Shown here in pieces: positions 131 through 51,414 of a DNA stretch of 64,000 bases. Every line of letters begins with the position of its first letter. Positions within the stretch are counted from its first letter, which is position 1. The stretch covers positions 1-64,000 of the forward strand of contig NZ_JACCKA010000082.1 of assembly GCF_013425525.1 (NCBI RefSeq). The letters run 5' to 3'. This stretch comes from Luteimonas salinisoli (GTDB lineage: Bacteria; Pseudomonadota; Gammaproteobacteria; Xanthomonadales; Xanthomonadaceae). The notes beneath the pieces were generated by a model, which worked only from the letters and a program-made list of their open reading frames with translations, was not told where the DNA came from and made no database searches. The translations under genes and the position numbers were made by a program.

Positions 131-227
131 GGACCTCGCCATGCACGGCACGGCTTCCCCGCTGCGCACACGTCCGGACCGCCCCGCGCACCCCTTCCCG
201 AATCCGCTCCGCCACCCAGGACTCCGC

Positions 228-3226: not shown

Positions 3227-3568
3227 TTGGCGCACTCGACGAAGGGCATTCTGGAAGACCTGTGGATCCGCGGCAGTTCCTAGTCTAGGACCGCGCGCGG
3301 TGCGCGGACGAACGCGCGGTGAACCGGCGCGCGCGCATCGCGGCGCACCGCGGACGGTCCACGCGGCGCCTTCACCCCCGGTTTCCGGGTACGGCCCCAG
3401 GCTGGATGGTCTTCGACCATGCATGCGCCGTGCCAGGGGCTCGCCCCCAGCACACCGGTGGGACCGGCTGGATCGCGGTCGCGGTGGCCGTACGCGGGCG
3501 CGTCGGCGCCCTGCTCCCGCGCGTGCGGCCTGGCCCGGGCGCCTCCCGTGCCTGCGATCCGGTCCGGG
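3227..3568. other. intergenic stretch without a recognised gene
   Basis: About 340 bp between the start of the lipoprotein gene and the end of the SpoIIAA-like gene, both on the minus strand. It is GC-rich, with GCGC-rich inverted segments, but I see no convincing reading frame with a ribosome site, no clear terminator and no repeat. It should hold the lipoprotein promoter, which I could not pick out. Confidence 0.5.
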
Positions 3569-3958
3569 TCAGGCGTCGTCGTCGTGCTTGGCGATGTCCG
3601 CCGCCCACTGCAGCGCCTGCGCCTGCTCCCCGGGAGCGAACGCGCGGACTTCGGTGCCGGGCAACAGCTTGCCGGCCATTTCCGAGACCTTGCCCAGCCA
3701 GTCGCGCTCGGTGACCACCGCGCCGCGGGCGAAGCGGTCGTAGTCGCCGAGCTTGGCGACGGCGTAGCGCAGGTCCTTGCCGATGGCGGCGGCCGACATC
3801 CCGGAGAAACCGCTCATGTCGGCGTACAGCCCGATACGGCGGTACTCGCCCAGCCGCGCCTCGATCTCGGCGATGCAGCGGTCGTAGTCGTCGCCGTCGA
3901 GGGTGCCGCTGAACTGGAAGGCCGCCACGTGGGGCGGCGCGGGCAGGATCTCGATCAT
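3569..3958 (-). CDS. SpoIIAA-like/STAS family protein
   Basis: Cytosolic protein of 129 aa with the pattern of the SpoIIAA-like (DUF3478) family: MIEILPAPPHVAAFQFSGTL, then a DYD motif, a central LYADMSGFSGMS strand-helix and a conserved DW near WLGKVSEM. The alternating strand/helix layout fits a STAS-like fold. Family members are small proteins of uncertain role, some proposed to bind lipids. It stands alone between the ClpP-like lipoprotein and the DNA repair pair, so context gives no further clue. Confidence 0.7.
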   Translation of the reverse strand: MIEILPAPPHVAAFQFSGTLDGDDYDRCIAEIEARLGEYRRIGLYADMSGFSGMSAAAIGKDLRYAVAKLGDYDRFARGAVVTERDWLGKVSEMAGKLLPGTEVRAFAPGEQAQALQWAADIAKHDDDA

Positions 3959-4056
3959 GTGCGCGCTCCAGGGTCCGACAGGTTCGAGCCTAGCCCCGGC
4001 GCCGTTCCGACGGCGTCAAGCGCGGAACGGCCGCGTGGGCGCAGCTGCGCCGCGGT

Positions 4057-4559
<503 letters not shown>

Positions 4560-4563
<4 letters not shown>

Positions 4564-6098
4564 CGGGTGACTCCTGCGGATGCGGGGAGGGGTCTGATGC
4601 GGCCCGCGGCTGGTCTGGCGGCGGCGGGCATCGCGTCGCGCCACAGCTGGATCACCGCGTAGCCGCGCCAGGGGCGCCAGGCTTCCGCGCGCGCGCGCAG
4701 GGCCTTCGCGCCGAGGCGGCTGCCGTCGGTGGGAACCGCCTTCTGCAGCACCAGATCCTCGGCCGGGAACGCATCGGGATGGCCCAGCGCGCGCAGCGCG
4801 ATGTAGTTCGCGGTCCATGGCCCGATGCCCGGCAGCGCGGTCCAGCGTTCGACGAACTCGTCGAGCGTGGCTTCCGGGCGGAAATCGACGCGCCCGTCGA
4901 CCAGCGCCGCGGCGATCCCGCGGACGGTGTCGGCGCGCGCACTGGTCAATCCGATGCCGCCCAGGTCGGCTTCGGCCAGCGCCTCGGGCGTCGGAAAAAG
5001 ACGGGCGAATCCGCGCGCAGCGAACGCTTCCGGCAACGGCGTGCCGAAGCGCTGCGCCAGGCGCGCGGTGAGGGTGCGCGCTGCAGCGACGCTCACCTGC
5101 TGGCCGATCACCGCGCGCACCGCGATCTCGAAGCCGTCCCAGCCGCTGGGGATGCGCAGCCCTGGGCGTCGCCGCAGCAGCGGGCGCAGCCGCGGGTCGG
5201 CGCGCAGCGCGTCCGCGATCGTGTCCGGATCGGCGTCCAGGTCGAACATCCGTCGCAGGCGGCCGACGAGCGCGAGCAGCGTCGCCGGCCGGCCGCCGTG
5301 CAGTTCCAGTTCGAGCGCGTGCTCCTTCGCGCCCCGGCCGGACGGCGCGCCCACCCGCAGCCAGCCGGGCGCATCCGCCGTGCCGAACACGCGCGAATAG
5401 CCGTGCGCGTCCACCACCTCGACCCCGGGCAGCGCGCGCCCGCGCAGGAAGTCCAGCGTGGCCGCGAAATCGTACGGCGGGCGGTAGTGCAGCCGCAGCC
5501 TCAGCGCATCCCCGCCGGCCGGCGCGACGTGCCTGCGCAGGTCGCGCGGGGCCATGGCATAGGCCTCGCGGAAACTGGTGTTGAAGCGGCGCAGGCTGCC
5601 GAAACCCGCTGCCAGCGCCACCTCGGTGATCGGCAACGCGGTCTCGGTGAGCAGCTGCTTGGCGAACAGCAGCCGGCGCGTCCCGTGCACGCCGATCGGC
5701 GGGGCGCCGAGGCGCTCGACGAACAGGCGCCGCAACTGCCGCTCGCCGATGTGCACGCGTTCGGCGAGCGCAGCGAGCGGCTGCTCTGCGAGCAGGCCCT
5801 GGTCGATCAGCTTCAGCGCCCGCGCCAGCACCTCGTCGCCGCGGCGCCAGGCGCCGTCGGCCGGCGACAGCTCAGGACGGCAGCGCAGGCACGGCCGGAA
5901 TCCCGCGGCCTCGGCCGCAGCGGCGCTGCGGTAGTAGGTCACGTTCTGCGGCCTGGGCGCCGGCGCGGGACACACCGGCCGGCAGTAGATCCCGGTGCTG
6001 GTGACGGCGGTGAAGAACAGGCCGTCGAAGCGCGGGTCGCGGCTCAGGCGCGCCTGTTCGCAGACGCGGAGATCGGGGATGGCTGCGGCACTGGACAT
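4560..6098 (-). CDS. alkA: Ada-type regulator fused to DNA-3-methyladenine glycosylase AlkA
   Basis: A 512-aa fusion. The N-terminus is the Ada metal-binding domain with four zinc cysteines, Cys39, Cys43, Cys70 and Cys73 (IYCRPVCPAP and RPCLRCRPE). An AraC-type helix-turn-helix domain follows (about 90-190), then the AlkA N-domain and the helix-hairpin-helix glycosylase. LPGIGPWTANYIALR carries the GPG hairpin, and the Asp in FPAEDLVLQK is in the place of the catalytic aspartate. Family members remove 3-methyladenine and related bases; the Ada/AraC part may sense phosphotriester damage and activate transcription. It is the first gene of an operon with ogt (4-bp overlap). In many proteobacteria the Ada N-domain sits on the methyltransferase; here it is on the glycosylase. 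Confidence 0.93.
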
Positions 6099-6411
6099 GA
6101 GGCCAGACTAGCACCGGGCCGAGGGCGGAACTGGCCGTTTTCGGACACCAATGACGCGTGCCGGCGGACCTCGGCCCGCTGTAGTCGCCCGGCACCGGGA
6201 AACGCCCGGAATCGGCGTCCACGCGCCGAGCCGCCCGCGCCTTCGCGGCCATGGGCCGCTAGAGGACGACGCCACGCCCTCGGAGGAAACCGCGTGGCGC
6301 AGCGCTCCTCGTAGGAGCGTGCCATGCACGCGAAAACCGGCGCGGTGGCCGACGCCGGGAATCACCGCCGACCCGACCGGAGCCGCCCGCGGCCTTCGCG
6401 GCCATGGGCCG
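6099..6411. other. intergenic region filled with REP elements
   Basis: No gene is seen between alkA and the phosphodiesterase gene. The stretch holds one clear REP doublet (6311-6415) and a degenerate one to its left (about 6181-6262), annotated separately. The alkA promoter should lie in the left ~80 bp. Confidence 0.6.
6181..6262. repeat. degenerate REP doublet, family A
   Basis: The right arm (about 6238-6262, CCTTCGCGGCCATGGGCCGC) matches the inverted arm of the clear family A doublet at 6391-6415. A weak forward partner begins with GTAG at 6181. The doublet looks decayed: the expected CTAC end reads CTAG. Confidence 0.55.
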
Positions 6412-6415
6412 CTAC
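6311..6415. repeat. REP doublet (REPIN), family A
   Basis: The forward arm at 6311-6335 starts GTAGGAGCG, with hairpin GCGTGC-CAT-GCACGC. The inverted arm at 6391-6415 reads GGCCTTCGCGGCCATGGGCC and ends CTAC, the complement of GTAG. The ~55-bp interior shares ATCACCGCC...GACCGGAGCC with the copies near 38.2 kb. REP pairs of this kind are usually mobilised in trans by a RAYT transposase; none is in the window. The TAG of the inverted head is the stop codon of the phosphodiesterase gene. Confidence 0.85.
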
Positions 6416-7656
6416 GGGACGACGTCGGGGTCGCGCAGTGCGGGTGCCAGGGTGCGCGGATCGCCGTCGCCGGGAAGCGGCTCCAGGCCCAGCAATCGCG
6501 CCAGCAGCGGGTAGACGTCGACATTGTCGAACGGCGGCAGTTCCATCGATTCGCGGAACGCCGGGCCGCGGGCGATGAAGATCGCCCGCATCGACGGCAG
6601 GGCGGGATCGAATCCGTGCGAACCGCGGGTGCCGGCAGGACGCCGCGCGATGTACTCGCTCGGGATCGCGTCCCAGCCCTCGTGCATCTGGCAGACGATC
6701 GGCGGAATGCGCGGATGGCTGCCGTAGTGCCAGCGCTCCGGCATCGCGGCCTTGCGCCAGCAGTCGTAGCGCCCGTGCGCCCCGAGCAGCGCGGCCTCGG
6801 CCTGCGCAGTCCGTCCCGGCTGCGGCCGGAAGCCGAGCACCTGGCCGAAGCTGACCGCCTGCGCGTCGGCCCCGTCGACCAGGTCCTCCACCGCCACCAC
6901 CTGGCCGTCGGCCACTTCGGCCATCCCGTGATCGGAGACCACCACGATGTTGACCCGCTCCTGCAGACCGCGCCGCGCGATGCCCTCGAGCAGTTGCCCG
7001 ATCGCGGTGTCGACCTCGCGCATCGCCTTGCGCAGCTCCGGCGAGTGCGGGCCGTGCGCGTGTCCGGCACCGTCGGGATGCTCGAAATACAGGGTCGCCA
7101 GCCGCGGCCGGCTGGCATCGGGCTCGGCCAGCCAGCCGAGCACCCTCCGCACGCGCGCGCGCATCTCCAGGGTCTCGTCGAACGCGCTCCAGCGCGTCGG
7201 CCGCACGCCGCGGACCGGCGCCTCGCTGCCGGGCCAGAACAGCGTCGCGGTGGGCAGGCCGGCGTTTTCGGCGGTCACCCACAGCGGTTCGCCCTCCCAC
7301 CATTCGCCATTGCCCACGGCATCGCGGTCGCTGAGCCGGAACCAGCCCAGTTCCGGAGCGTGCATGGTGTTGTGGATCAACCCGTGGCGGTCGGGGCGCA
7401 GGCCCGTGACCATGGTGTAGTGGTTGGGAAAGGTCAGCGACGGATACGAGGGCGTCATCCATGCGGCACGCACGCCTTCGCGGGACAGCCGGTCCAGGTG
7501 CGGGGTATCGCCGCGGCCGAGCATGTCGGGATGCACGCCGTCCAGCGAGACCAGCAGCAGGGTCGGGGCGGACGGGGCGATGCCGGCGGGCGGCGCTGAC
7601 GCGCATCCGGCCAGGAGCAGCAGGCAGGCGCAGAAGAAGGGGAGCGGGTTCGGCAT
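6412..7656 (-). CDS. NPP-type nucleotide pyrophosphatase/phosphodiesterase lipoprotein
   Basis: A 414-aa exported enzyme of the alkaline phosphatase superfamily, resembling the Xanthomonas NPP that hydrolyses phosphodiesters. The start at 7656 (MPNPLPFF) gives a signal sequence with lipobox LLLAGC. The catalytic threonine lies in PSLTFPNHYT. Metal ligands are visible in SLDGVHPD, EHPDGAGHAHG, VVSDHGM and RGSHGFDP. The domain fills the protein. It is transcribed alone, between REP elements downstream and a divergent small secreted protein. Its TAG stop is supplied by the adjoining REP head. Confidence 0.88.
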   Translation of the reverse strand: MPNPLPFFCACLLLLAGCASAPPAGIAPSAPTLLLVSLDGVHPDMLGRGDTPHLDRLSREGVRAAWMTPSYPSLTFPNHYTMVTGLRPDRHGLIHNTMHAPELGWFRLSDRDAVGNGEWWEGEPLWVTAENAGLPTATLFWPGSEAPVRGVRPTRWSAFDETLEMRARVRRVLGWLAEPDASRPRLATLYFEHPDGAGHAHGPHSPELRKAMREVDTAIGQLLEGIARRGLQERVNIVVVSDHGMAEVADGQVVAVEDLVDGADAQAVSFGQVLGFRPQPGRTAQAEAALLGAHGRYDCWRKAAMPERWHYGSHPRIPPIVCQMHEGWDAIPSEYIARRPAGTRGSHGFDPALPSMRAIFIARGPAFRESMELPPFDNVDVYPLLARLLGLEPLPGDGDPRTLAPALRDPDVVP

Positions 7657-10172: not shown

Positions 10173-11582
10173 ATGCGTGTCGCGCCGCTGCTGCTCGCCC
10201 TTTCCCTGAGTCTGTCCGCGGCCGTCGCGGCGCAGGACGCCACGCGCATCCCCGACGCCGCGCTGGACACCGCCGCGCAGCTGCGCGCGCAGGCGCTCGC
10301 CGACGATACGGGCTGGAAGGTGATCGAGTCGCTGACGACCGAGATCGGGCCGCGCCTGCCCGGCAGCGAGGCCGATGCGCGCGCGGTCGCCTGGGCCGAG
10401 GCGAAGTTCGCCGAGCTCGGTTTCGACCGCGTCTGGACCGAGCCGGTGACGTTCCCGAAGTGGGAGCGCCGCAGCGAGCGCGCGTACGTGCTCGGCGCGC
10501 ACGCGCAGCCGCTGGTGGCCACCGCGCTCGGCGGCAGCCCCGGCGGCGAGATCGAGGCCGAGATCGTGCGTTTCGCCGACTTCGCCGCGCTCGAGGCGGC
10601 GCCGGTAGGGTCGCTGCAGGGAAAGATCGCGTTCGTGGACTACCGTATGGAGCGCACCCGCGACGGCAGCGGCTACGGCGACGCCGGGCCGATCCGCGGC
10701 CGCGGCCCGGCGGTGGCCAGCGGCAAGGGCGCGATCGGCTATCTGATGCGTTCGATCGGCACCAGCGCGCACCGTGTCGCCAATACCGGCATGACGCGTT
10801 TCCCGGACGGCGCGGCGCCGATCCCCGCGGCGGCGCTGTCGCTGTCCGACGCCGACCAGCTCGGCCGCCTGCTGCAGCGCGGCCCGGTGCGGGTGCGGCT
10901 GGAGCTCGACTGCGGCTGGAACGGCGAGTACACCTCGCAGAACGTCATCGGCGAGATCACCGGGCGCGAATCGCCGGAGGAAGTGGTGATGATCGCCGGC
11001 CACCTCGACTCCTGGGACCACGGCACCGGCGCCGTGGACGACGCTTCGGGCATCGGCATCACCATGGCGGTCGGGCACCTGATCGGCCGGCTGCCCCAGG
11101 CGCCGAAGCGCAGCATCCGGGTGATCGCTTTCGCCAACGAGGAGCAGGGCCTGATCGGCGCCCGCCAGTACGCCGAACGCCACGCCGGCGAAATCGCCAG
11201 CCACGTGATCGCCGCCGAGAGCGACTTCGGCGCCGGCCGCATCTACGCCTTCGACAGCAGCGCGCCGGAGCACGCGCAGGCCGCGATCCGGCGGATCGCC
11301 GAGGCGCTGGCGCCGCTGGGGATCGAACACACGCCGGGCGCCGGCAGCCCCGGCCCCGACATCATCCCCCTGGCACAGGCGGGCGGCGCCTGGGCCTGGC
11401 TGGGACAGGACGGCAGCGGCTACTTCGACCTGCACCACAACGCCGACGACACCCTGGACAAGGTGGACCCGGAGGCCGTGGCGCAGAACGTCGCCGCCTA
11501 CGCGGTGTTCGCCTGGCTGGCGGCCGAGGCCGAGGGCGACTTCGGCAGCACCCCGGACGCCGCCCAGGCCACCGCCGAATAA
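10173..11582 (+). CDS. M28 family zinc aminopeptidase, exported
   Basis: A 469-aa metallopeptidase with a signal peptide (LALSLSLSAAVAAQ) and a PA-like insert around residues 110-220, as in bacterial and plasma glutamate-carboxypeptidase relatives. Zinc ligands follow the M28 pattern: GHLDSWDHGTGAVDDASG (His and bridging Asp), NEEQGLIGA (catalytic and ligand Glu), an Asp in AAESDFGAG and a His in DLHHNADDT. It probably trims N-terminal residues from peptides in the periplasm or outside the cell. A T-rich tract and GGAG precede the ATG. Confidence 0.92.
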   Translation: MRVAPLLLALSLSLSAAVAAQDATRIPDAALDTAAQLRAQALADDTGWKVIESLTTEIGPRLPGSEADARAVAWAEAKFAELGFDRVWTEPVTFPKWERRSERAYVLGAHAQPLVATALGGSPGGEIEAEIVRFADFAALEAAPVGSLQGKIAFVDYRMERTRDGSGYGDAGPIRGRGPAVASGKGAIGYLMRSIGTSAHRVANTGMTRFPDGAAPIPAAALSLSDADQLGRLLQRGPVRVRLELDCGWNGEYTSQNVIGEITGRESPEEVVMIAGHLDSWDHGTGAVDDASGIGITMAVGHLIGRLPQAPKRSIRVIAFANEEQGLIGARQYAERHAGEIASHVIAAESDFGAGRIYAFDSSAPEHAQAAIRRIAEALAPLGIEHTPGAGSPGPDIIPLAQAGGAWAWLGQDGSGYFDLHHNADDTLDKVDPEAVAQNVAAYAVFAWLAAEAEGDFGSTPDAAQATAE

Positions 11583-11643
11583 GGCCTCGCAGCGGTCGGC
11601 GGCTCGCCGCCGCCGGCGAGCGGCGCCTGGCGCGGAAACCCCG

Positions 11644-12477
11644 TCAGCCGGCGGGCACGCGCATCCGCCACGCCGCCAGCAGGACCGCCGCGGCGGCGGC
11701 GACGTTGAGGCTCTCGACCGCGCCCGTGCCCGGAATCGACAGGCGCAGGTCGCAGGCGGCGGCCAGCGCGTCGTCCATGCCCCCGCCCTCGGCGCCGAGC
11801 ACATAGACCAGCCGTCGCGGCAGCTGCACGGCGAACAGATCCTCGCCGCCGCGCACCACCGTGGCCGCCAGCGCGAAACCGGCCCGGCGCAGCGCCGCCA
11901 GGGCCGCCGCGTCGTCGGCAATGCGCACCAGCGGCACCGCCTCTGCGGCGCCCTCGGCGACGCGCGCCGCGGCGCCGGAAACGGCCAGGCCCGAACGCTG
12001 CGGCAGCAGCACCGCGACGACCCCGAAATGCGCCGCCGAACGCAGGATCGCACCGAGGTTGTGCGGGTTGCCGACGCCGTCGAGCCACAGCGCGCAGGCA
12101 CCGCCGGCGGGCACGCCCCGCAGCCAGTCCTGCAGCGCCGTCGGCTCGGCGCGCAGCACGTCGGCGACCACGCCCTCGTGGTGCGCGCTGCCGGCCAGGC
12201 GCTCGAGCTCGCCCTCGTCGACCACGCGATAGCCGATCCGGTTGTCCACGCACCATTTCAGCAGCGGCTGCAGCTGCGGGATGCGCGCCTGGACCAGGTA
12301 CAGCTTGCGAATCGCCTGCGGGCGCCGCGCGAACACCGCCTGTACCGCATTGACGCCGTACAGGCGCAGCTCGGCGCGGCGGTCGGGACGCGGCGACCGC
12401 GTGGGCGGCTGCCCTGCCGCACCCGTCCGTCCCGCCCACGGCGAGCCGGACGGTCGCCGCGGCGGCCCCGACGCCAC
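11644..12477 (-). CDS. TrmH/SpoU-family RNA 2'-O-methyltransferase
   Basis: A 277-aa protein of the SPOUT class that methylates ribose 2'-OH in rRNA or tRNA. The N-terminal substrate-binding domain (YGVNAVQAVFARRPQAIRKL) is of the RlmB kind. The catalytic trefoil has DGVGNPHNLGAILRSAAHFG (motif 1, with Asn and Arg), VYVLGAEGGGM (motif 2) and LSIPGTGAVESLNVAAAAAV (motif 3, including the SLNVA loop). The start is GTG at 12477 with AAGGA upstream; the first ~35 residues are low complexity. The gene begins 4 bp after the symporter stop, so it is probably coupled to it. The exact target base is unknown. Confidence 0.88.
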   Translation of the reverse strand: MASGPPRRPSGSPWAGRTGAAGQPPTRSPRPDRRAELRLYGVNAVQAVFARRPQAIRKLYLVQARIPQLQPLLKWCVDNRIGYRVVDEGELERLAGSAHHEGVVADVLRAEPTALQDWLRGVPAGGACALWLDGVGNPHNLGAILRSAAHFGVVAVLLPQRSGLAVSGAAARVAEGAAEAVPLVRIADDAAALAALRRAGFALAATVVRGGEDLFAVQLPRRLVYVLGAEGGGMDDALAAACDLRLSIPGTGAVESLNVAAAAAVLLAAWRMRVPAG

Positions 12478-12481
12478 CGCG

Positions 12482-13915
12482 TCAGTCCTTCCTGCGCCAG
12501 AAATCGGCGTTGCGGATGCCCAGCGCCTCCGGATCGAACACCGGCTCCTTGCCCGCGGCCTGCTGGCCCTCGTAGTCCCGCAGCGCCAGCAGCGCCGGCT
12601 TCTGCAGGATCAGGATGGCGACGATGTTGAGCCAGGCCATCAGGCCCACGCCGATGTCGCCCAGGGTCCAGGCCATCTCCGCGGTGCGCACGGCGCCGAA
12701 GGTGACCGCCGCCAGCAGCGCCAGCCGCAGCGCGAACACCATCCATGGCCGGTGCACCTTGCGGTTGATGTAGGTGACGTTGGTCTCGGCCATGTAGTAA
12801 TAGGCGAGGATGGTGGTGAAGGCGAAGAACAGCAGCGCGACCGCCACGAACGCCGCACCCCAGCCCGGCAGTACCGACTCCACCGCGTACTGGGCGAAGC
12901 CCGGCCCGGCCTCGATCCCCGGCAATGCCTCGACGATCATCTCGCCGCCGCGTCCGACCACGTTGTACATGCCGGTGGAGAGGATCATGAACGCGGTGGC
13001 GCTGCACACCACCAGGGTGTCGACGTACACCGAGAACGCCTGCACGAAGCCCTGCTTGGCAGGATGCGAGACCTCGGCGGCGGCGGCGTGGTGCGGCCCG
13101 GTGCCCTGCCCCGCCTCGTTGGAATAGATGCCGCGCTTGACGCCCCATTCGATCGCCAGCCCCAGCACCGCGCCCATGCCCGCCTCCAGGCCGAACGCGC
13201 TGCGGAAGATCAGCCCGAGCATCTCCGGCACCGCGGAGACGTTGAGGAACATGATCACCAGGGCGATCAGCAGGTAGGCCAGCGCCATGAACGGCACCAC
13301 CACCTGGGCGAAGCTGGCGATGCGCTTGACGCCGCCGAAGATGATGAAGCCCAGGCCCACCACCACGAAGGCGGCGGTCGCCGTCGGCGGCACGCCCCAG
13401 GCGTTGCTCATGCTCGACGCGATGCCGTTGGCCTGGACCCCCGGCAGCAGGAAGCCGGTGGCGATCACGGTCACCACGGCGAACAGCCAGGCATACCAGC
13501 GCTGGCCCATGGCCTTCTCGATGAAATAGGCCGGACCGCCGCGGTAGCGGCCTTCGTCGTCCTTCTCCTTATAGATCTGCGCCAGCGTCGATTCCACGTA
13601 CGCCGTGGAAGCGCCGAGGAAGGCCACCACCCACATCCAGAACACCGCTCCGGGCCCGCCGAAGGCGATCGCCGTGGCCACGCCGGCGATGTTGCCGATG
13701 CCGACGCGTCCGGACAGCGACATCGCCAGCGCCTGGAACGACGACACACCGGCATCGGACTTGCCGCCGCTGAGCAGCAACCGGATCATCTCGGGAACCC
13801 TGCGCAGCTGCATGAATCGCGTCCTGATCGAGAAGTACAGGCCTGCGCCCAGGCACAGCGCGATCAGCGGCGGGCTCCAGATGATGCTGTTGAGGGTGTT
13901 GACGATCTGTTCCAC
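12482..13915 (-). CDS. sodium:alanine/glycine symporter (AGCS family)
   Basis: A 477-aa inner-membrane transporter that couples sodium entry to uptake of alanine or glycine. Around ten membrane helices are visible. Family signatures are SGRVGIGNIAGVATAIAFGG near residue 75 and the loop with GRYRGGPAYFIEKAMG. The start is GTG at 13915 behind GGGGAG. It probably forms an operon with the downstream methyltransferase gene. Confidence 0.93.
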   Translation of the reverse strand: MEQIVNTLNSIIWSPPLIALCLGAGLYFSIRTRFMQLRRVPEMIRLLLSGGKSDAGVSSFQALAMSLSGRVGIGNIAGVATAIAFGGPGAVFWMWVVAFLGASTAYVESTLAQIYKEKDDEGRYRGGPAYFIEKAMGQRWYAWLFAVVTVIATGFLLPGVQANGIASSMSNAWGVPPTATAAFVVVGLGFIIFGGVKRIASFAQVVVPFMALAYLLIALVIMFLNVSAVPEMLGLIFRSAFGLEAGMGAVLGLAIEWGVKRGIYSNEAGQGTGPHHAAAAEVSHPAKQGFVQAFSVYVDTLVVCSATAFMILSTGMYNVVGRGGEMIVEALPGIEAGPGFAQYAVESVLPGWGAAFVAVALLFFAFTTILAYYYMAETNVTYINRKVHRPWMVFALRLALLAAVTFGAVRTAEMAWTLGDIGVGLMAWLNIVAILILQKPALLALRDYEGQQAAGKEPVFDPEALGIRNADFWRRKD

Positions 13916-43271: not shown

Positions 43272-43919
43272 CTAGAGCGCCCGATGCACCGCTTCGCCGA
43301 ACAGCGGCGTGTGGTGGGCGCAGTCGTTCAGCCGCACCACCTCCAGCGTATCGGCGCTGCCGCCCTCGAGCAGGTTCATGCTGGTCGGGGCCTGGCGGAA
43401 GCTCCACAGCCGCGAGAACGGGATCCCCAGCACATGGCAGAGGATCACCCGGTTGACCGCGTCGTGCGCCACCACCAGCACCGTGGCGTCCGCGCCGAGC
43501 CCCTCGCAGGCGCGTTGCAGCGCCGGCCACGCGCGGTCGAAGACATGCTGCAGCGACTCGCCGCCGTCGGGCATCAGCACGCTGTCCGGCGCGTCGCGCC
43601 AGGCCTGCAGCCGCTCGGGGTCGCGGTCGCGGATCTCGCTGGCGAGCAGGCCCTCCCAACTGCCATGGGCGATCTCGAGCAGCCCCGAGTCGGTTCGCAG
43701 CCGGTCCGCGCGCGCGGGCCCGAGCACCAGTTGCGCGGTGCGCTGCGCACGCGACAGCGGCGAAGCGACCGCGCGGTCGATCGCCAGGTCGCGCAGGCGC
43801 AGGCCCAGCGCCTCGGCCTGGGCCTCGCCGACCGGCGAGAGCGGAATGTCCTCCCGGCCCTGGTAGCGGCCCTCGGCGTTCCATGGGGTCTCGCCGTGGC
43901 GGACCAGCAGAATCCTCAT
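43272..43919 (-). CDS. histidine phosphatase family protein
   Basis: A 215-aa enzyme of the phosphoglycerate-mutase-like branch. The RHG motif with the phosphoacceptor histidine is in MRILLVRHGETPWNAEGRYQ; the second half has VASPLSRAQRTAQLVLG, EIAHGSWEGL and VLVVAHDAVNRVILCHVLG with the second catalytic histidine. Substrates in this family range from phosphosugars to alpha-ribazole phosphate, and none is favoured here. The start at 43919 is family-like. Confidence 0.9.
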   Translation of the reverse strand: MRILLVRHGETPWNAEGRYQGREDIPLSPVGEAQAEALGLRLRDLAIDRAVASPLSRAQRTAQLVLGPARADRLRTDSGLLEIAHGSWEGLLASEIRDRDPERLQAWRDAPDSVLMPDGGESLQHVFDRAWPALQRACEGLGADATVLVVAHDAVNRVILCHVLGIPFSRLWSFRQAPTSMNLLEGGSADTLEVVRLNDCAHHTPLFGEAVHRAL

Positions 43920-44477
43920 GTCGTTGCGTCCTCGTGTTCCGGTCGGTGTACGCGCGGCCGACGCCCGCACCCGCGAAAAGGGCACCGAACCGTCGCGCGC
44001 GCCGCGGCCGGCGCAGGGTAGCAGAGCCGGACGTGCGGACCGCTCGGGCCCGTCGGCCGGCGCAGTGGCGGCGCCGCGAACCTCGCCGCACCGGCGCCGC
44101 TCCGGAGGCAGGCCGTCGTCCCCGCCGCCCAGCACCGGTGCCGGCAAGGGTGGCCGCCATCCGTACGCCTGGGGTGGCCGCCGCCGCGCAGGGAAAACCA
44201 GCCTCGCTGTCCATCCGCACGGCCCGCCTGCCGCACGTCGCGGGGAGTATCCCGTCGATGCATTCGTAGCGCCTTCATCTTGAATACTGGAGGCTGCGCG
44301 AAAGCAGGCGGCACTCACCGGAAGGGATAGACGACTCGCCGGGCTTTTCGCTGTCCAGTGACGGGTCTGGGCTTCGGTGCTACCGTCAAACCACGCACAG
44401 TCCACACGCTGGCTGCGCGTACCTGTGCCAGGGAGGGGTCTGGTACGCCGGCTGGCCTCCTCGAGGGCCATTCCGCA
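43920..44477. other. intergenic boundary of the signalling module
   Basis: About 560 bp without a gene I can support. The left two thirds are as GC-rich as the neighbours. From about 44260 the composition changes (CTTCATCTTGAATACTGG and onward) and stays less GC-rich through the next four genes. This looks like the left edge of an inserted block. No insertion sequence, tRNA or direct repeat is recognised at the junction. The ketosynthase promoter should be in the right part. Confidence 0.45.
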
Positions 44478-45722
44478 ATGTCGTTGCAACGCGTCGCTAT
44501 CACCGGCTTGGGGATCTTGTCGCCTATCGGGCTGGATGCCGCCCAGGCGCTCGAATCCCTGCGCGCGGGGACGTCCGGTATCCGCCTGATCCAGGCGCCC
44601 CCGATCGCGAAGTCGTTCGCCGCGGGCGTCATCCCGCACTCGTTCGAAGAGCATTTCACCAAGCTCGAGCGCCCCTTCCTCGACCGCTGCCAACATCTGG
44701 CGATCCTGGCCGCCCGGCAGGCCCTCCAGGAGGCCGGGCTGCCGGAGCAACTCGCGGGCTATGGACAGCGCGCCGGTGTCTATTACGGCAACGTCAACGG
44801 CGGCGCCGCGACGACGGTTGCCTGGACGCGCGATCTCCACGTCGAGGGCAAGGCCGCCTCACGGCCATTCACTGCCATGGCGATCATGGGCAACGCCGGC
44901 GCCGCCCAGGTCGCCATCCGCCACAAGATCCTTGGCCCGGTCATCACCAACGCCAGCGCCTGCGCCTCGTCCGGCGTCGCCATTGGCGAGGCCGGTCGAG
45001 CGATCGCGCACGGGTATGCCGACGTGATCCTCGCGGGAGGGGCGGAGGCCCCCCTGACGGCTGGGGTCTTTGGCACCTTCGACGGTACCCGGGCCATGTC
45101 GGCCCCCGACCCGGAAGACCCGTCCCGTACCTGCAAACCCTTCTCCACGGCAAGATCGGGGCTGGTCATCGGCGAGGGAGCGGCCTGGCTGGTCCTGGAG
45201 AGCGAGAAGCATGCGCTCGCTCGCGGAGCCAGGATTCATGCTTATCTCACTGGCTACGGCATCTCATCCGACTCGCACCACATCGGCATGCCGGAGACCA
45301 ACGGTCAGGTCGCCGCGTTGGAGGCGGTCCTGGCCCATGCCGGGCTGCAACCGTCCGACATCGACTACATCAACGCCCACGCCACCGCGACCCGCGGAGG
45401 CGATAAGATCGAAGCCGAATCGATCAGGCGGGTATTCGGGGCCGATCGCGGAGCCCCCAGGGTCAGTTCGACCAAGGCGGTCCACGGGCACCTGATCGGC
45501 GCCGCCAGCGCACTGGAACTGTCCCTGACGATCCTGGCGATGAACGACAAGCTTCTTCCCGCCAGCGCCTTCATCGGCGAAGCCGATCCCCAGTGCGAAC
45601 TCAATCACGTAGGTCCTCGTCCCGTCCCCGCACAGGACATCCGTCACGCCCTGAGTTTCTCTTGCGGGTTCGGCGGGACGAATGCCGCCCTAGTCGTTTC
45701 AACCAAACCACCAGATCGTTGA
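44478..45722 (+). CDS. FabF-type beta-ketoacyl-ACP synthase
   Basis: A 414-aa condensing enzyme of the KAS II group. The active-site set appears complete: Cys162 in NASACASSG, His301 in NAHATATRGGD, Lys333 in SSTKAVHGH and His338 in VHGHLIGAAS. Such enzymes extend an acyl chain with malonyl-ACP. It differs from housekeeping FabF by context: it stands 24 bp before an RpfF-type synthase, with an ACP gene 3 kb away, and away from other fab genes. It probably helps make the acyl-ACP precursor of a signal fatty acid. The start at 44478 (MSLQRVAITGLG) follows GAGGG; a longer frame from 44358 is less family-like. GC content is visibly lower than around it. Confidence 0.88.
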   Translation: MSLQRVAITGLGILSPIGLDAAQALESLRAGTSGIRLIQAPPIAKSFAAGVIPHSFEEHFTKLERPFLDRCQHLAILAARQALQEAGLPEQLAGYGQRAGVYYGNVNGGAATTVAWTRDLHVEGKAASRPFTAMAIMGNAGAAQVAIRHKILGPVITNASACASSGVAIGEAGRAIAHGYADVILAGGAEAPLTAGVFGTFDGTRAMSAPDPEDPSRTCKPFSTARSGLVIGEGAAWLVLESEKHALARGARIHAYLTGYGISSDSHHIGMPETNGQVAALEAVLAHAGLQPSDIDYINAHATATRGGDKIEAESIRRVFGADRGAPRVSSTKAVHGHLIGAASALELSLTILAMNDKLLPASAFIGEADPQCELNHVGPRPVPAQDIRHALSFSCGFGGTNAALVVSTKPPDR

Positions 45723-45746
45723 ACCAACGCCCTTAGGAGCTCGAAA

Positions 45747-46649
45747 ATGCACGCCGCCACCCTGCCGTCTGCTCAGCCCTTCAACCGCCCATCGACGGGC
45801 CGGATCAACGCCGCCATCAGGCGCCTGGCCGAGCCAACGCTCTGGCTGACGGTGAAGCCCGATGCCGCATCCGGCGTCCACAACTTCACTCCGGAGCTGA
45901 TCGCCGAATTCCGGCGCACCCTCGACGAAATTTCGTTCGACAGCGCGACTGCCCGCGTCCCGCACGAGTTTCCCCGGTACGCGATCGTCCATTCGGGCGA
46001 TCCGAATTATTTCAGTCAGGGCGGGGATCTGTCGTTCTTCCTCTCCTGCATTCTGAAGGGCGATGCGGAGGGTTTGCGAAGGTACTCGAGCAGCTGCCTG
46101 GACGTGCTGCTGAGCTGGTCCTCGGATTTCAAGAGCGAAATGCACACGATTTCGCTGGTGCAGGGGCGCGCCCTTGGCGGCGGATTCGAGATGGCGCTGA
46201 GTTCCGATCACATCATCGCCGAGGAACAGAGCACCTTCGGCTTTCCCGAGATCATGTTCGGCCTGTTCCCCTGCACCGGGGCGATGGGCCTGGTGAGCGC
46301 ACGCACGAATCCCCACGTCGCCGAGCGGCTGATGACCGACAAGAAGGTCTATACGGCGGCGCAGCTTCTGGACATGGGGCTGATCGATCAGGTTTGTCCA
46401 ACAGGCCAGGGCGAACTTGCGGTTGAGCAGTACATCGGCACCCACGCGAAACGGCGCAAGGCGAGGATGAAGGTCCAGCAGAGCCGCCACCGGATGTCGA
46501 AAATCGATCCGGAAGAAGGATTGCTGGTGGTCGACGACTGGGTCGAAACGGCGATGTCCCTCAGCCCGGACGAAATCCGCCAGCTGGAAATGCTGATCCT
46601 CATGCAGCACGGCGAACGCCCGGCGGAACCGAGTCTCAAGGTCGCCTGA
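45747..46649 (+). CDS. rpfF: RpfF-type DSF synthase (crotonase family)
   Basis: A 300-aa protein of the enoyl-CoA hydratase fold closely patterned on RpfF. It has FSQGGDLSFF, SLVQGRALGGGFEMALSSDHIIAEE, FGFPEIMFGLFP and a C-terminal helical part. The two glutamates needed in RpfF are present as Glu148 and Glu168, with the same 20-residue spacing as Glu141/Glu161 in the Xanthomonas enzyme. RpfF dehydrates 3-hydroxyacyl-ACP and releases the cis-2-unsaturated fatty acid (DSF) by thioesterase action. An AGGAG site precedes the ATG. The ketosynthase lies 24 bp upstream in the same operon, and the RpfC-type kinase is convergent 8 bp away, as in the rpf locus. A paralogue with other chain specificity is possible. 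Confidence 0.87.
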   Translation: MHAATLPSAQPFNRPSTGRINAAIRRLAEPTLWLTVKPDAASGVHNFTPELIAEFRRTLDEISFDSATARVPHEFPRYAIVHSGDPNYFSQGGDLSFFLSCILKGDAEGLRRYSSSCLDVLLSWSSDFKSEMHTISLVQGRALGGGFEMALSSDHIIAEEQSTFGFPEIMFGLFPCTGAMGLVSARTNPHVAERLMTDKKVYTAAQLLDMGLIDQVCPTGQGELAVEQYIGTHAKRRKARMKVQQSRHRMSKIDPEEGLLVVDDWVETAMSLSPDEIRQLEMLILMQHGERPAEPSLKVA

Positions 46650-46657
46650 CGACCCGA

Positions 46658-48784
46658 TCAATTGTTGACGGCGTGAGGCGGGGCGAAGCCCTGCCTCACT
46701 TCCTCCAATGCCTCGACGGTGTTCTTCAGCGTGTTCTGCAGTTCGGTCTGCCAGCGCGCCGGATCAGAAACCAGAGCATCGTTCGTCAGACCCATCATCC
46801 GGTCGGCGAGACCCGCCAGGCGCATGCACCCGACACTCAGCGATACTCCCTTCATGGAATGCGCCGAGCGATGCAGCTGCGGCAGATTGCAGGACTCGAT
46901 GGCGCCCCCGAGCTCGATGTCCAATGCCTTGATGTCGGCCAGGGCGTCGCTGATGACGCTGAACAGGAACTCGGGCGTATCCTTGATCTCGCGTAGCCAG
47001 CCGATCTTGTCGTAATCGAGATATTCGACGGGAACCGAGCTGAGCTCGGCGAGCTTCTTCGGCGCCGCCGGAACAGCGGCCCCCACCGGGACGACCGCCT
47101 CCCCAGGGAAGGCCGATGCGAACGCTTCGCGAATCTTCTCGAACGTCATCGGTTTGTGGATCACGCCGGCGGCGCCCAGATCTTCGAGCAGTTGTGTCGT
47201 GCGCGAAGTGGTGTCGGCCGTCACGAAGAACGTCGGGGCGATATTGATCCTGCTGAACTGGTAGGTCTGGAAAACGGTGGCGCCATCGACGTCGTCGATG
47301 TTGTAGTCGAGGAAGAGGATGTCGAATTCCCTACTGCTCAACTGCAGGATGGCCTCCTGGCCGCTGCTGACGGCCATGACCTCATGGCCGCCCTTGAGCA
47401 ACATCTCGCGCATCAGTTCCAGGTTCGTCGTATTGTCGTCGGCGATCAGCACCCGCTTGTTCGATACCAACGCTCCGCGTTGCGCGCGGGCGTCGGGTTC
47501 GGCGGGGACGGCCCGATGATCGATCGGAAACGTCAACTCGAACCAGAAGACGCTTCCCTCGCCCAGAGCGCTGTCCACCTTGAGATCGCCACCCATCCCC
47601 ATGACGAGTTCCCGGGCGATCGCGGAGCCGAGCCCCGTGCCTGGCTGCGTCGGCGAGCGGCCGTCGGCCACCTGATAGAAGGGCTCGAAGATCTTCTCGT
47701 GATGCTCCGGCGCGACGCCGATGCCGGTGTCTTCCACCGCGACCCGGACCCTGTACCCCGAAGCGGTCTGTTCGATCAGACGCATCTTCAATGTCACCGA
47801 GCCGTGCTCCGTGAACTTCACCGCATTGCCGAACAGATTCGTCAGTACCGCCAGAAGCTCCTGGTAGTGGCCGATGACCGGGGACTTGATGTTCTCATCG
47901 AACTCCAGCGACACCTTCAGGCTCTTGCCTGCCGCGATCGACTCCAGGGACTTGAATGCCCGGGTTGCCGCGTACGCCAGGCTGAACGACTTCGCGGGTT
48001 CCCGACGCTTCCTTCCCTGGGTCTCGAACTTCGACAGCTCGAGCAGCTGATCGATCTCGGCCTCCAGCGTGCCGGCGAGCTGCAGTATGGCCTTGGACCG
48101 CCTGACGGTTTCCGCTTCCGAGGACTCCACTTCCAGCAGCTGGGCGGAGGCGGTGATGCCCGTGAGCGGCGTGCGAAGCTCGTGGCTGACCTTGGCCAAC
48201 AGTTGCGATTTGGCGCGACTCTCGTGCTCGGCCAAGGCTTTTGCCGTCTGGATCCTCTGGATGAGGAACGATGCGTACACGGGGACCACGAGCAGAATGA
48301 TCATGTACGAGATGGCGAACAGGATCTGCTCCCGCCAGGTCGGCGACACGAAGGCCACGATCGCGAAGCCGAGCAAGGACATCGCCTGGCAGATATGCAT
48401 CGCCTTGGCGCCGATCCTGAATCCGAATCCGAGAACGGTGAACAGGTAGAAGCCGACGAAGATCACCGACGTATCGCCGGCGAACAACAGCCAAGCGGAG
48501 AGGAAAAGCGGGTCGAGAACGGCGGAGACCACGACTTGCTCGCGCAAATCCAGCGGCTTGCGGCGCTGGGCGAAAATGCGCATCGAGGTGGCATAGACGC
48601 CGTACAAGGCCACCAGGGCGATGGCGCCGGCCGCGCTCGCCTCCATCTTGTAGGACGTGAAATAGATGATCGAGATGACCAGCGCCACCAGCATTCCGAA
48701 CGTGAGCCGGAAATGCGCCTGCGCGAGGACGTTCTTCTGAAGTTCGTCAGGCGTGTGGTCGTCCATTGCGTCGAACCGCTTCAT
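46658..48784 (-). CDS. rpfC: RpfC-type hybrid sensor histidine kinase
   Basis: A 708-aa membrane hybrid kinase with the RpfC domain order. A membrane sensor of about five to six helices (residues ~25-185) includes GFRIGAKAMHICQAMSLLGF and an SPTWR segment like the RpfC sensor. Then come HisKA with His201 in KVSHELRTPLTG, HATPase (NLFGNAVKFTEHGS, DTGIGVAPEHHEK), a receiver with Asp493 in ILFLDYNID, and an Hpt domain with His642 in RSAHSMKGVS. RpfC senses DSF and passes phosphate to RpfG. No rpfG or other HD-GYP gene is in the window. The ATG at 48784 was chosen; a TTG two codons earlier is possible. It is convergent with rpfF and divergent from the ACP gene. Confidence 0.87.
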   Translation of the reverse strand: MKRFDAMDDHTPDELQKNVLAQAHFRLTFGMLVALVISIIYFTSYKMEASAAGAIALVALYGVYATSMRIFAQRRKPLDLREQVVVSAVLDPLFLSAWLLFAGDTSVIFVGFYLFTVLGFGFRIGAKAMHICQAMSLLGFAIVAFVSPTWREQILFAISYMIILLVVPVYASFLIQRIQTAKALAEHESRAKSQLLAKVSHELRTPLTGITASAQLLEVESSEAETVRRSKAILQLAGTLEAEIDQLLELSKFETQGRKRREPAKSFSLAYAATRAFKSLESIAAGKSLKVSLEFDENIKSPVIGHYQELLAVLTNLFGNAVKFTEHGSVTLKMRLIEQTASGYRVRVAVEDTGIGVAPEHHEKIFEPFYQVADGRSPTQPGTGLGSAIARELVMGMGGDLKVDSALGEGSVFWFELTFPIDHRAVPAEPDARAQRGALVSNKRVLIADDNTTNLELMREMLLKGGHEVMAVSSGQEAILQLSSREFDILFLDYNIDDVDGATVFQTYQFSRINIAPTFFVTADTTSRTTQLLEDLGAAGVIHKPMTFEKIREAFASAFPGEAVVPVGAAVPAAPKKLAELSSVPVEYLDYDKIGWLREIKDTPEFLFSVISDALADIKALDIELGGAIESCNLPQLHRSAHSMKGVSLSVGCMRLAGLADRMMGLTNDALVSDPARWQTELQNTLKNTVEALEEVRQGFAPPHAVNN

Positions 48785-48851
48785 CGGCAAACCCGCTCAG
48801 GCTATACGGTGGATATGCAAGAATTGGGCCACCACGCCCCCGGACTCTCCT

Positions 48852-49103
48852 ATGGACAAGCAGACCATCTTGCACCGCCTCAGCGCGATCCTTCAAGACA
48901 AGTACGACGTGAAGGACGTCTCAGTCGAACCTGAGACGAAACTCTCCGAACTCGGCATCGATTCGATGATCACGGCCGATCTCATGCTCGAGATCGAGGA
49001 CGCCCTGGGCTTCACCTTCACCAACATGGAAATGCCGCGGAACGCGACTGTCCAGGACGTCGTCGATGTGGTGCACCAGCACCTCGGCTCCAGCGCTTCC
49101 TAG
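48852..49103 (+). CDS. acyl carrier protein
   Basis: An 83-aa acidic carrier protein. Ser38 in LGIDSMITADLMLEIED is the phosphopantetheine site (DSM rather than the DSL of AcpP), with the usual four-helix pattern (EPETKLSELGID, NATVQDVVDVVHQHL). The gene is divergent from the RpfC-type kinase across 67 bp, and no clear ribosome site precedes the ATG. It is not next to fab genes, so it is probably a dedicated ACP for the signal made by the neighbouring ketosynthase and RpfF-type enzyme. A polyketide or other specialised carrier role cannot be ruled out from sequence. Confidence 0.88.
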   Translation: MDKQTILHRLSAILQDKYDVKDVSVEPETKLSELGIDSMITADLMLEIEDALGFTFTNMEMPRNATVQDVVDVVHQHLGSSAS

Positions 49104-49251
49104 GAGACCGCGTCGCGCCCTCCTCCGCGCGCGACCCCTGGCTGGCCTTCGCCACGTTGCGCAAAGGCGACATGGCTGCATGTGAATCACGCGAACGCGT
49201 GGCGGCTTCACCGCAGCTCCGCTCCAGGGCGTTGGCGCGCCGGGCGAACGC

Positions 49252-51414
49252 CTACGGCGCCAGGCCAAGCTCCTCGAGCAGCTGCGGCGCCGGATAGGCC
49301 TCCTGCATGATCCAGCGCAGGTAGCGCTGGTCCACCGAGATGGTCCGGGTCATCGCCGGGTCGAACACCCAGTTCGAGCTCACCGATTCCCAGTTCATGT
49401 CGAACAGCAGGCCGGTGAGCCGGCCGCGCGCATCCAGCACCGGCGAGCCGGAGTTGCCGCCGGTGACGTCCAGGTCGGACAGGAAGTTGACCGGCACGCT
49501 GCGCAGCCGGCGGTCGGCGAGGCCGCCGTCGCGACCCTCGGCCACCGCGTCCAGCAGCGCCTGCGGCGCGTCGAAGGGCTCTTCGCCGGTGGCCTTCTGC
49601 GCCACCTCCTCGAGCCGGGTGAAGGGCGCCTGCTCCTCGCCATCGAGCTTGGTGTAGCCGGTCACGTTGCCGAAGGTGATCCGCAGCGAGCCGTTCGCGT
49701 CCGGGTAGACGTGGTTGCCCTGGCTGGCGCGATGTTCGGCCACCGCCTGCAGATACACCGGGCGCGCGCGCAGTTCGTCGCCGGCGCGCGCCTTGCGCTC
49801 GAGCTCCTGCCGGAGGACCTCGGGCATCACCGCCACCGCATAGAGAATCGCCGGATCGCGGCTGTTCTCGAACGCGTCGCGGTCGGCCTCGAGCCAGCGC
49901 AGGCGCTCTTCGACGTTGGCAAGGCCGGTCCCTGCCAACCGGTCCAGCGCCCGCTCGATGGCGGCCTCGTCGTCGCCGCCGAGCCAACCGTCGATGGCCT
50001 CGACGCGCTGCTCCGCCGGCAGCGCCGCATACTGCTGCAACCAGTAGCGCTGCAGCTGGCGGTCCATGTCGGGATGGTAGCGGCGCTCCATCTGCTGCAG
50101 CTCGCCACGGATGCGCGGCTGGTCGCGCTCCTGGTGGCCGGGCTCGCGGTCGGCGTCGGGGTTGGTGCGCTCGATCGCGTTGCGGTAGAGCGTCATCGCC
50201 GTTCCCAGCGCGCCGAGGCGGTGGAGCTGCCCGAGCACCAGGTCGCGCTCTCGGGTGGCCTGGCCCTCGGCCAACAGCCGCACCAGCTCGGCATGCGCCT
50301 CGAGGGCTTCGGCACCGGCCTCGCCGCGCCCGCGCAGCCATTCCAGCACCGCCGCTTCCTCGGCGCGCTTGGCCGCGGCGGCGTCGATCCGTGCGAAACC
50401 CTCCAGCTGGCCGTCGTAGTTCTTGGAAGTGTTCTTCCAGCCGCCCACGCTGCTGGCGTACTTCACGGCGATGTCGGGATTCTCGCGGCCCTGGACCTCG
50501 ACCAGCTCCAGCATCGCCTTGTAGTGGCGACTGAGGGTGGGATAGCTCCATTCGGCGGTCTGCTCGAACTCGTCGGCCAGCGCGTAGCGCCGGGTCGTAC
50601 CCGGGTAGCCCGCGGCCATCACGAAGTCGCCTTCGCGCAGCGGTCGGTCGGCGAACTGCAGCCAGCGCTTCGGCTGGTAGGGCACGTTCTCCGCGGCATG
50701 GTCGGCGGGCTGGCCGTCCGGGCCGACATAGGCGCGGTAGAAGGCGAAGTCGCCGGTATGGCGCGGCCACATCCAGTTGTCCACCTCGCCGCCGTAGTTG
50801 CCGATGCCCCCGGGCGGGGCGTAGGCCAGGCGCACGTCGCGGATCTCCAGGTTGCGGAACAGCCGGTAGACGTTGCCGCCGGCGAAACTGTAGAGGCGGC
50901 AGCGATAGCCTTCGCGGAACTCGCAGCCGGCGATCAGCTTCTTCTCGATCTGCTCCAGCGCGCGCGCGCGGCCGATGGCGTCCGGCGCCGCGGCGATCGC
51001 GGCCTGCACCTGCCCGGTGACGTCGCGGATCGAGTCGAGCACGAAGATGCGCGCGTTGGGGCCGGCGCTCGGCTCGTCGTCGGCGGTCGCGGCGACGAAG
51101 CCATCGCGCATCAGGTTGTTGTCCGGTGTCGAGTTGAGCTGGATGGCTCCGTAGGCGCAGTGATGATTGGTCACCACCAGGCCCTGCGGCGAAACGAAGC
51201 TGGCGGTGCACCCTCCCAGCGACACCACGGCGCCCATCGGATCGCCGGTCAGGTCGGCGAACTGTTCCGGGCGCAGGCGCAGGCCCGCCTTGCGCAACGG
51301 CGCCTCGATCTCGGGCAGCTGCTGCGGCACCCACATACCCTCGCCGGCCCCGGCCAGGTCGGCGGCCAGCAGCAACGCAATGGCGATCGCGATTCGACGC
51401 ATCTGTGTCCTCAT
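49252..51414 (-). CDS. S46 family serine peptidase (dipeptidyl-peptidase type)
   Basis: A 720-aa exported peptidase with signal peptide AIALLLAADLAGAG. The chymotrypsin-like catalytic domain has His in VVTNHHCAYGAI, a helical insert domain (about 270-570) and Ser in VTGGNSGSPVLDARGRL. S46 enzymes (DPP7/DPP11) release dipeptides from the N-terminus of peptides in the periplasm. The specificity cannot be read safely here. An ATG at 51402 is a second possible start. It ends next to the ACP of the signalling module and is divergent from tdh. Confidence 0.94.
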   Translation of the reverse strand: MRTQMRRIAIAIALLLAADLAGAGEGMWVPQQLPEIEAPLRKAGLRLRPEQFADLTGDPMGAVVSLGGCTASFVSPQGLVVTNHHCAYGAIQLNSTPDNNLMRDGFVAATADDEPSAGPNARIFVLDSIRDVTGQVQAAIAAAPDAIGRARALEQIEKKLIAGCEFREGYRCRLYSFAGGNVYRLFRNLEIRDVRLAYAPPGGIGNYGGEVDNWMWPRHTGDFAFYRAYVGPDGQPADHAAENVPYQPKRWLQFADRPLREGDFVMAAGYPGTTRRYALADEFEQTAEWSYPTLSRHYKAMLELVEVQGRENPDIAVKYASSVGGWKNTSKNYDGQLEGFARIDAAAAKRAEEAAVLEWLRGRGEAGAEALEAHAELVRLLAEGQATRERDLVLGQLHRLGALGTAMTLYRNAIERTNPDADREPGHQERDQPRIRGELQQMERRYHPDMDRQLQRYWLQQYAALPAEQRVEAIDGWLGGDDEAAIERALDRLAGTGLANVEERLRWLEADRDAFENSRDPAILYAVAVMPEVLRQELERKARAGDELRARPVYLQAVAEHRASQGNHVYPDANGSLRITFGNVTGYTKLDGEEQAPFTRLEEVAQKATGEEPFDAPQALLDAVAEGRDGGLADRRLRSVPVNFLSDLDVTGGNSGSPVLDARGRLTGLLFDMNWESVSSNWVFDPAMTRTISVDQRYLRWIMQEAYPAPQLLEELGLAP

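Follow-up and report, generated by a model that had tools for sequence, protein, structure and literature searches.

In a 64,000-nucleotide stretch of the Luteimonas salinisoli genome (contig NZ_JACCKA010000082.1; hereafter the window), we found at 44478-49103 a block of four genes that encode a FabF-like β-ketoacyl-ACP synthase (KAS), an RpfF-like crotonase, an RpfC-like hybrid kinase and an acyl carrier protein (ACP). The block is probably a horizontally acquired signaling module of the diffusible signal factor (DSF) type with a dedicated ketosynthase and a dedicated ACP. We observed the genes, their catalytic residues and their linkage, together with a separate RpfF clade and an altered RpfC sensor. 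An earlier note, made from the letters of the window, had described the block, and translations as well as Pfam and NCBIfam matches supported all four genes. The residues named there for the four proteins were all found (Table 1), and its arrangement also held: the KAS and RpfF genes form an operon with a gap of 24 nt, the RpfF and RpfC genes are convergent with stops 8 nt apart, and the RpfC and ACP genes are divergent with 67 nt between their start codons. The RpfC-like protein has the RpfC-like Pfam order of membrane sensor, HisKA, HATPase, receiver (REC) and Hpt domains and keeps all phospho-sites, i.e., His201 in HisKA, Asp493 in REC and His642 in Hpt when numbered from the ATG at 48784 (203, 495 and 644 when numbered from a TTG two codons upstream).

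Recurrence of the block and comparison with canonical rpf loci

An RpfF relative (E ≤ 1e-20) was present in 229 of the 297 genomes of the family, and the block type was present in 17, across 11 genera. Among the matches listed, the block-type proteins were 53-100% identical to the window's RpfF and the other rows at most 39%. A KAS profile search returned exactly the same 17 of 297 genomes at ≥664 bits, the next matches scoring 445 and 383 bits. In the order sample, 6 of 299 genomes carried a block-type RpfF (E ≤ 1e-85); three of them were from a second family, and those three also carried the KAS and ACP. An RpfF-profile match (E ≤ 1e-20) was found in 78 of 369 genomes of the class-wide sample, and among the best 30 of these loci, examined over at most 1.5 kb per side, a KAS occurred only at the window's own locus. 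Of 72,556 plasmid records, 16 held an RpfF relative at E ≤ 1e-20, all below 60% identity; none of the 15 plasmid matches listed, the best of which was 37% identical, resembles the block clade.

The earlier note had proposed a neighborhood search for RpfF homologues with an adjacent KAS and ACP, and this search brought out a recurrent module. A scan of genomes gave 70 loci, of which 65 lie in the clade of the window's RpfF (L127-L131 were dropped as non-clade). Their hosts include Lysobacter, Luteimonas, Pseudoxanthomonas, Dokdonella, Rudaea, Noviherbaspirillum, Thiomonas and many metagenome-assembled genomes (MAGs) of Proteobacteria. A KAS was nearby in 63 of the 65 loci, an RpfC of the N-terminal type in 58, an ACP in 52 and all three in 49; several loci that miss a gene lie at contig ends. 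Within the family, 15 of 16 loci show the complete block arranged as in the window, and the remaining locus (L041) is cut by a contig end. The ACP gene occupies three positions: in Lysobacteraceae and some others it is divergent and lies beyond RpfC; in Dokdonella, Rudaea, Thiomonas and others it immediately precedes the KAS; and in L094 and L117 it follows RpfF. The same content recurs in at least three gene orders. The four proteins have correlated pairwise distances (0.80-0.89; n 50-62; 0 of 999 permutations as high), which fits joint inheritance.

As a control, we used 20 canonical rpf loci, 16 of the family and 4 of other families, and examined about 6 kb on each side. All 20 were without a KAS (tblastn E ≤ 1e-3) and without an ACP (profile E ≤ 0.01). 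The earlier note had raised the possibility that this block is simply the family's ordinary rpf locus. This is refuted, as the block type occurs in only 17 of the 229 RpfF-bearing genomes and none of the 20 canonical loci has a KAS or ACP. A canonical RpfF and RpfC with a receiver/HD-GYP protein lie on contig C22 of the same genome, which comprises 95 contigs. Judged by eye from size and first residues, genes there resemble those for acyl-CoA ligase, LysS and PrfB at other rpf loci; therefore, the block is an extra in the window's genome. Two RpfF matches (E ≤ 1e-20) were found in this genome (G000) and in G008, G160 and G174; in the other 13 of the 17 family genomes with the block, only one was found. 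At one locus (L074, the same as L051), the block adjoins a canonical rpfF-rpfC pair. Acyl-CoA ligase, aconitase, LysS and PrfB are classical rpf neighbors, and at least one of their genes lies near the block in 17 of the 65 clade loci (one representative of each was identified). The module is therefore in part an alternative form of the rpf cluster and not always an add-on.

An RpfG-type gene, recognized by eye as receiver plus HD-GYP, is nearby in 30 of the 65 clade loci; for a representative, the best NCBIfam model, below its cut-off, was a response-regulator cyclic di-GMP (c-di-GMP) phosphodiesterase. In three Betaproteobacteria MAGs (L082, L093 and L100), a protein with a receiver and an apparent class III nucleotide cyclase (one sequence, by eye) stands where others have the RpfG-type gene; such a regulator would couple block-type RpfC to another second messenger. 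In Thiomonas and relatives (L079, L081, L085, L088, L091 and L126), a protein of about 555 residues resembling a methyl-accepting chemotaxis protein lies downstream of RpfF, and an HDOD-like protein adjoins RpfC (both by eye).

A separate RpfF clade with the RpfF fold

The window's RpfF was 41-68% identical to its clade and 30-41% (median 35%) to 41 canonical rows. We built an RpfF tree of 108 rows, excluding the window copies L134 and L137, the two rows of L051 (the locus of L074) and the long branches L159, L162 and L165. The 67 clade rows fell on one side of a single branch with a Shimodaira-Hasegawa-like approximate likelihood ratio test (SH-aLRT) value of 100; on this tree, the clade label takes 1 change and the KAS label 3 changes. 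Judged by sequence, the clade is distinct from the canonical DSF synthases sampled. Row L107_b of the tree also adjoins a KAS; its locus, in a Proteobacteria MAG, holds two tandem KAS-RpfF pairs with one RpfC between them (92-6861).

The structure model of RpfF, obtained with 17 sequences, had a mean predicted local distance difference test (pLDDT) score of 79.7. Its 12 best fold matches in the PDB were chains of RpfF, DfsA or RpF-1 (E 3e-21 to 1.5e-19), and 6dgn, 5fus and the complex of RpfF with the RpfC REC domain (3m6m) were among the best matches; the first general crotonase followed at 1.9e-14. In the model, the protein has the RpfF fold rather than the general crotonase fold. The comparison with canonical RpfF that the earlier note had suggested sets this protein apart, yet the solved structures closest to it, in sequence as well as in fold, are those of RpfF proteins; the tree took in RpfF rows only. 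In Xanthomonas RpfF, the catalytic residues are reported to be E141 and E161 and the thioesterase glycines G86 and G138 (PMC9040811). With a numbering offset of 7, these correspond to E148, E168, G93 and G145 of the window's RpfF, which are kept in clade and canonical rows alike.

KAS and ACP compared with housekeeping fatty acid synthesis

The KAS keeps its catalytic residues and scored 354.2 bits with the NCBIfam FabF equivalog, under the cut-off of 493.75; its identity to three further KAS proteins encoded in this genome is 33-36%. The ACP passed the PP-binding Pfam domain (39.6 vs. a cut-off of 20.8), scored 33.2 bits with the housekeeping ACP model TIGR00517, under the cut-off of 70.45, and is 26% identical to the genome's own AcpP. 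All 53 block ACPs have the attachment-site serine, and 52 of the 53 have a non-acidic residue where AcpP has D38, as does the window's ACP. D38 of AcpP matters for docking to the enzymes of fatty acid synthesis.

The four genes inspected include no reductase, Fab-type dehydratase, transacylase or phosphopantetheinyl transferase. Therefore, the acyl supply can be private at most at the ketosynthase and carrier steps. The earlier note had inferred a private acyl-ACP supply; a recurrent KAS/ACP module whose KAS and ACP are absent from the ordinary rpf loci examined stands, and any privacy would be confined to these two steps.

We also considered the HMG (3-hydroxy-3-methylglutaryl)-type β-branching cassette of polyketide synthesis, which consists of an ACP, a decarboxylating ketosynthase without the active cysteine, an HMG-CoA synthase and two enoyl-CoA hydratases. 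It was ruled out, as the ketosynthase of the block retains the active Cys162; no HMG-CoA-synthase-like gene was recognized among the recurrent neighbor families inspected, which were not all of the families. Separately, contigs C70 and C88 of the window's genome encode an additional ACP-like protein and an additional KAS; acpP and its neighboring KAS are on another contig. Another ACP-KAS pair lies beside a gene resembling an aminotransferase in L184-L187 (G173, G283, G024 and G273), and its KAS scored 373-383 bits with the block profile.

An altered sensor in the block RpfC

In Xanthomonas RpfC, residues R15, D17, S18, E19 and Q22 are reported to be needed for DSF binding, and S18 may be replaced by T (PMC5391125). 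The window's RpfC has the equivalent of Q22, and R15, D17, S18 and E19 are absent. All 17 canonical Lysobacteraceae kinases, including that of the window's genome, keep all five residues. A Q-x-x-x-R motif, equated with Q22, served as the anchor for 54 of the 55 block kinases, which makes the retention of Q22 automatic; in L118 the anchor is two residues off, and for L062 no anchor was obtained. With respect to the other four residues, 39 of the 54 kinases keep none and 15 keep one (R15 in 5, D17 in 1, S/T18 in 9 and E19 in 0). A hydropathy scan gave the window's RpfC five membrane segments, two of them overlapping, and the canonical RpfC of the genome four. In another locus (L043, G280; 10751-12765), the block RpfC-like gene is apparently split over two frames near residue 478.

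Insertion site and layout

Absence of the block from the corresponding site in congeners bears on its acquisition. We compared 19 congeneric S46 loci (20 genomes besides the window's matched S46). The histidine phosphatase gene lies at most about 0.9 kb past S46 in 17 of the 19 and was not seen in the stretch examined at the other two (L195 and L206), and KAS, RpfF and RpfC are absent from the site in all 19. The simplest reading is that the block entered the site as a four-gene unit; its loss in the other congeners is less simple. We had considered accD as the upstream neighbor, and the gene there is that of the histidine phosphatase. Several congeners have a second S46 copy (about 46-51% identical) next to the first, and the window's genome has one match (E ≤ 1e-150).

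The GC content at third codon positions (GC3) of the four frames is 0.79, 0.82, 0.85 and 0.81. These values are near the bottom of the range found in the window, as most of its likely genes fall at about 0.85-0.97. Scans of 43800-49400 found 1 promoter-like site (mean of 0.7 in shuffled sequences) and 2 terminator-like sites (mean of 3.2), i.e., none above the shuffles. In a PHROGs search, KAS and RpfF had no match, and the ACP had one weak match to an ACP family (2.3e-6).

Table 1. Genes of the block and its flanks in the window
Gene	Position	Strand	Features
KAS (FabF-like β-ketoacyl-ACP synthase)	44478-45722	+	first operon gene; Cys162/His301/Lys333/His338, GFGG motif
RpfF-like crotonase, separate clade	45747-46649	+	catalytic Glu148, Glu168; best fold matches are solved RpfF
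RpfC-like hybrid kinase	46658-48784	-	membrane segments, HisKA, HATPase, REC, Hpt
ACP (acyl carrier protein)	48852-49103	+	attachment Ser38
Histidine phosphatase gene, then folC	43272-43919	-	one flank of the insertion
S46 family dipeptidyl-peptidase gene	49252-51414	-	other flank of the insertion

Proposed mechanism

RpfF is described as dehydrating 3-hydroxyacyl-ACP and cleaving the thioester, the substrates being drawn from the general elongation cycle; DSF levels fall on treatment with cerulenin, an inhibitor of FabF and FabB (PMC4542539, PMC5941067). General fatty acid synthesis is described as the source of the intermediates from which DSF signals are made (PMC4542539, PMC5941067), so that the identity of the signal should follow the acyl pool of the host. 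A module with its own KAS and carrier would instead write signal specificity into the signaling locus. Searches of an open-access library turned up no description of KAS or ACP genes in an rpf locus; subscription journals were not covered, and the absence is therefore no proof.

We propose that the KAS would condense an acyl primer with malonyl on the ACP of the block and that housekeeping FabG would reduce the product to 3-hydroxyacyl-ACP, malonyl loading also coming from the host. RpfF would then dehydrate 3-hydroxyacyl-ACP to a cis-2-enoyl thioester and hydrolyze it to a free unsaturated fatty acid. This product, which need not be DSF and probably differs from it, would be sensed by RpfC through a membrane sensor unlike the canonical one. 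The REC domain of RpfC may hold or free RpfF, and RpfC may pass phosphate to an RpfG-type c-di-GMP phosphodiesterase, for which the RpfG of the C22 cluster is a candidate in the window's genome.

Weighing of the explanations

Several points weigh against a DSF-type module with its own ketosynthase and carrier. The individual chemical steps, a product different from DSF, the interaction of REC with RpfF and cross-talk with RpfG are predicted from sequence and not from chemistry. RpfF scored 171.6 bits with the NCBIfam RpfF equivalog NF053515, under the cut-off of 550, while passing the wider crotonase family model NF006452 (244.9 vs. a cut-off of 177). The clade loci were gathered with two peptide patterns, so that conservation there (around R141 and G172-C176) is biased and was excluded as evidence. 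The correlated distances are expected for any co-inherited genes and by themselves are no proof of joint function. No RpfG is encoded in the window's block, and rpfB, rpfG and the classical neighbors are not beside rpfF-rpfC within the window. As to gene content, the KAS is missing in two clade loci (L116 and L122), both on short contigs, and eight loci with KAS and RpfC had no ACP detected; a contig end explains this for L077, L101 and L103, and not or only partly for L096, L106, L107, L121 and L124, where the ACP may be dispensable or encoded elsewhere. In two Lysobacterales MAGs (L094 and L117), KAS, RpfF and ACP stand in a row and RpfC was not found in the stretch examined, possibly a synthesis-only form. 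With respect to the sensor, four canonical kinases of other families keep E19 and Q22 and not the full set, and loss of some DSF-binding residues is therefore not unique to the block. In addition, Stenotrophomonas RpfC-2, which has a variant N-terminus compared with RpfC-1, is reported to sense DSF still (PMC4517397); therefore, an altered sensor is no proof of another ligand.

Under another explanation, the block is an ordinary DSF system with the usual C12-C13 signals, in which the KAS and ACP merely boost the flux of the same precursors. The canonical catalytic residues of RpfF agree with it, as do the classical rpf neighbors in 17 of 65 loci, the QxxxR at the Q22 position common to the block kinases (a count anchored on the motif) and the DSF-sensing Stenotrophomonas RpfC with its variant N-terminus (PMC4517397). 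However, a mere booster would not need the two RpfF matches present in 4 of the 17 family genomes with the block, the window's included, and, of the other four DSF-binding residues, 39 of the 54 block kinases keep none and 15 keep one; we regard it as quite unlikely. It is unlikely, too, that the product of the module is an unsaturated or branched lipid without a signaling role, i.e., a membrane lipid or a secreted metabolite, with the kinase only regulating its synthesis. The distance of RpfF from the 41 canonical rows (median identity 35%) would suit such a product, as would the fact that none of the 54 block kinases keeps the four DSF-binding residues and that L094 and L117 have KAS, RpfF and ACP without RpfC in the stretch examined. 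What speaks against it is that, of the 65 loci, 58 carry the RpfC N-terminal type, 30 an RpfG-type gene and 17 classical rpf neighbors, and that only a single RpfF match (E ≤ 1e-20) was found in 13 of the 17 family genomes with the block. That the KAS and ACP are unrelated genes that happen to lie beside an rpfF-rpfC pair is scarcely credible, and nothing was found in its favor: among the 297 genomes, the 17 with this KAS are exactly those with this RpfF, the same content recurs in at least three gene orders, the site is free of the block in 17 of 19 congeneric loci, and none of the 20 canonical loci has a KAS or ACP.

A DSF-type module with a dedicated ketosynthase and ACP remains the probable explanation. 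More tentatively, the module may form an orthogonal DSF-type channel, in which a signal-only KAS and a carrier hardly touched by housekeeping enzymes would make a product of other length or branching, or with a second double bond, that the cell's canonical RpfC does not see. The cell would then use two non-interfering fatty-acid languages, one of them on a cassette spread between species. The sensing of DSF by RpfC-2 led us to rate this broader proposal lower, and the ordinary DSF system higher. The question bears on what fixes the chain length and branching of DSF and on whether two DSF systems in one cell stay apart.

Comparison with known systems

The canonical rpf locus of Xanthomonas and Lysobacteraceae (rpfB, rpfF, rpfC and rpfG) shares with the block the RpfF fold, the catalytic glutamates and a convergent RpfC of HisKA-HATPase-REC-Hpt type. 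It differs in having no KAS or ACP (20 of 20 loci), an RpfF outside the block clade and an RpfC with R15-x-D17-S/T18-E19-x-x-Q22. The rpf-1 and rpf-2 loci of Stenotrophomonas maltophilia are described as two forms of one rpf locus with paired RpfF and RpfC variants; however, their variation lies mainly in the N-termini of RpfF and RpfC, and the available text of that report mentions no added KAS or ACP (PMC4517397). With FabF and AcpP of type II fatty acid synthesis, the block shares the KAS family, the Cys-His-Lys-His set and the DS attachment motif of the ACP, whereas the window's KAS and ACP both score under the curated FabF and ACP cut-offs. The RpfF of Burkholderia and Cronobacter (DfsA) has the same RpfF fold, with 6dgn and 5fus among the best matches of the model. 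The receptor in Burkholderia and Cronobacter is RpfR, whereas the window's block has an RpfC-type membrane kinase as the candidate receptor.

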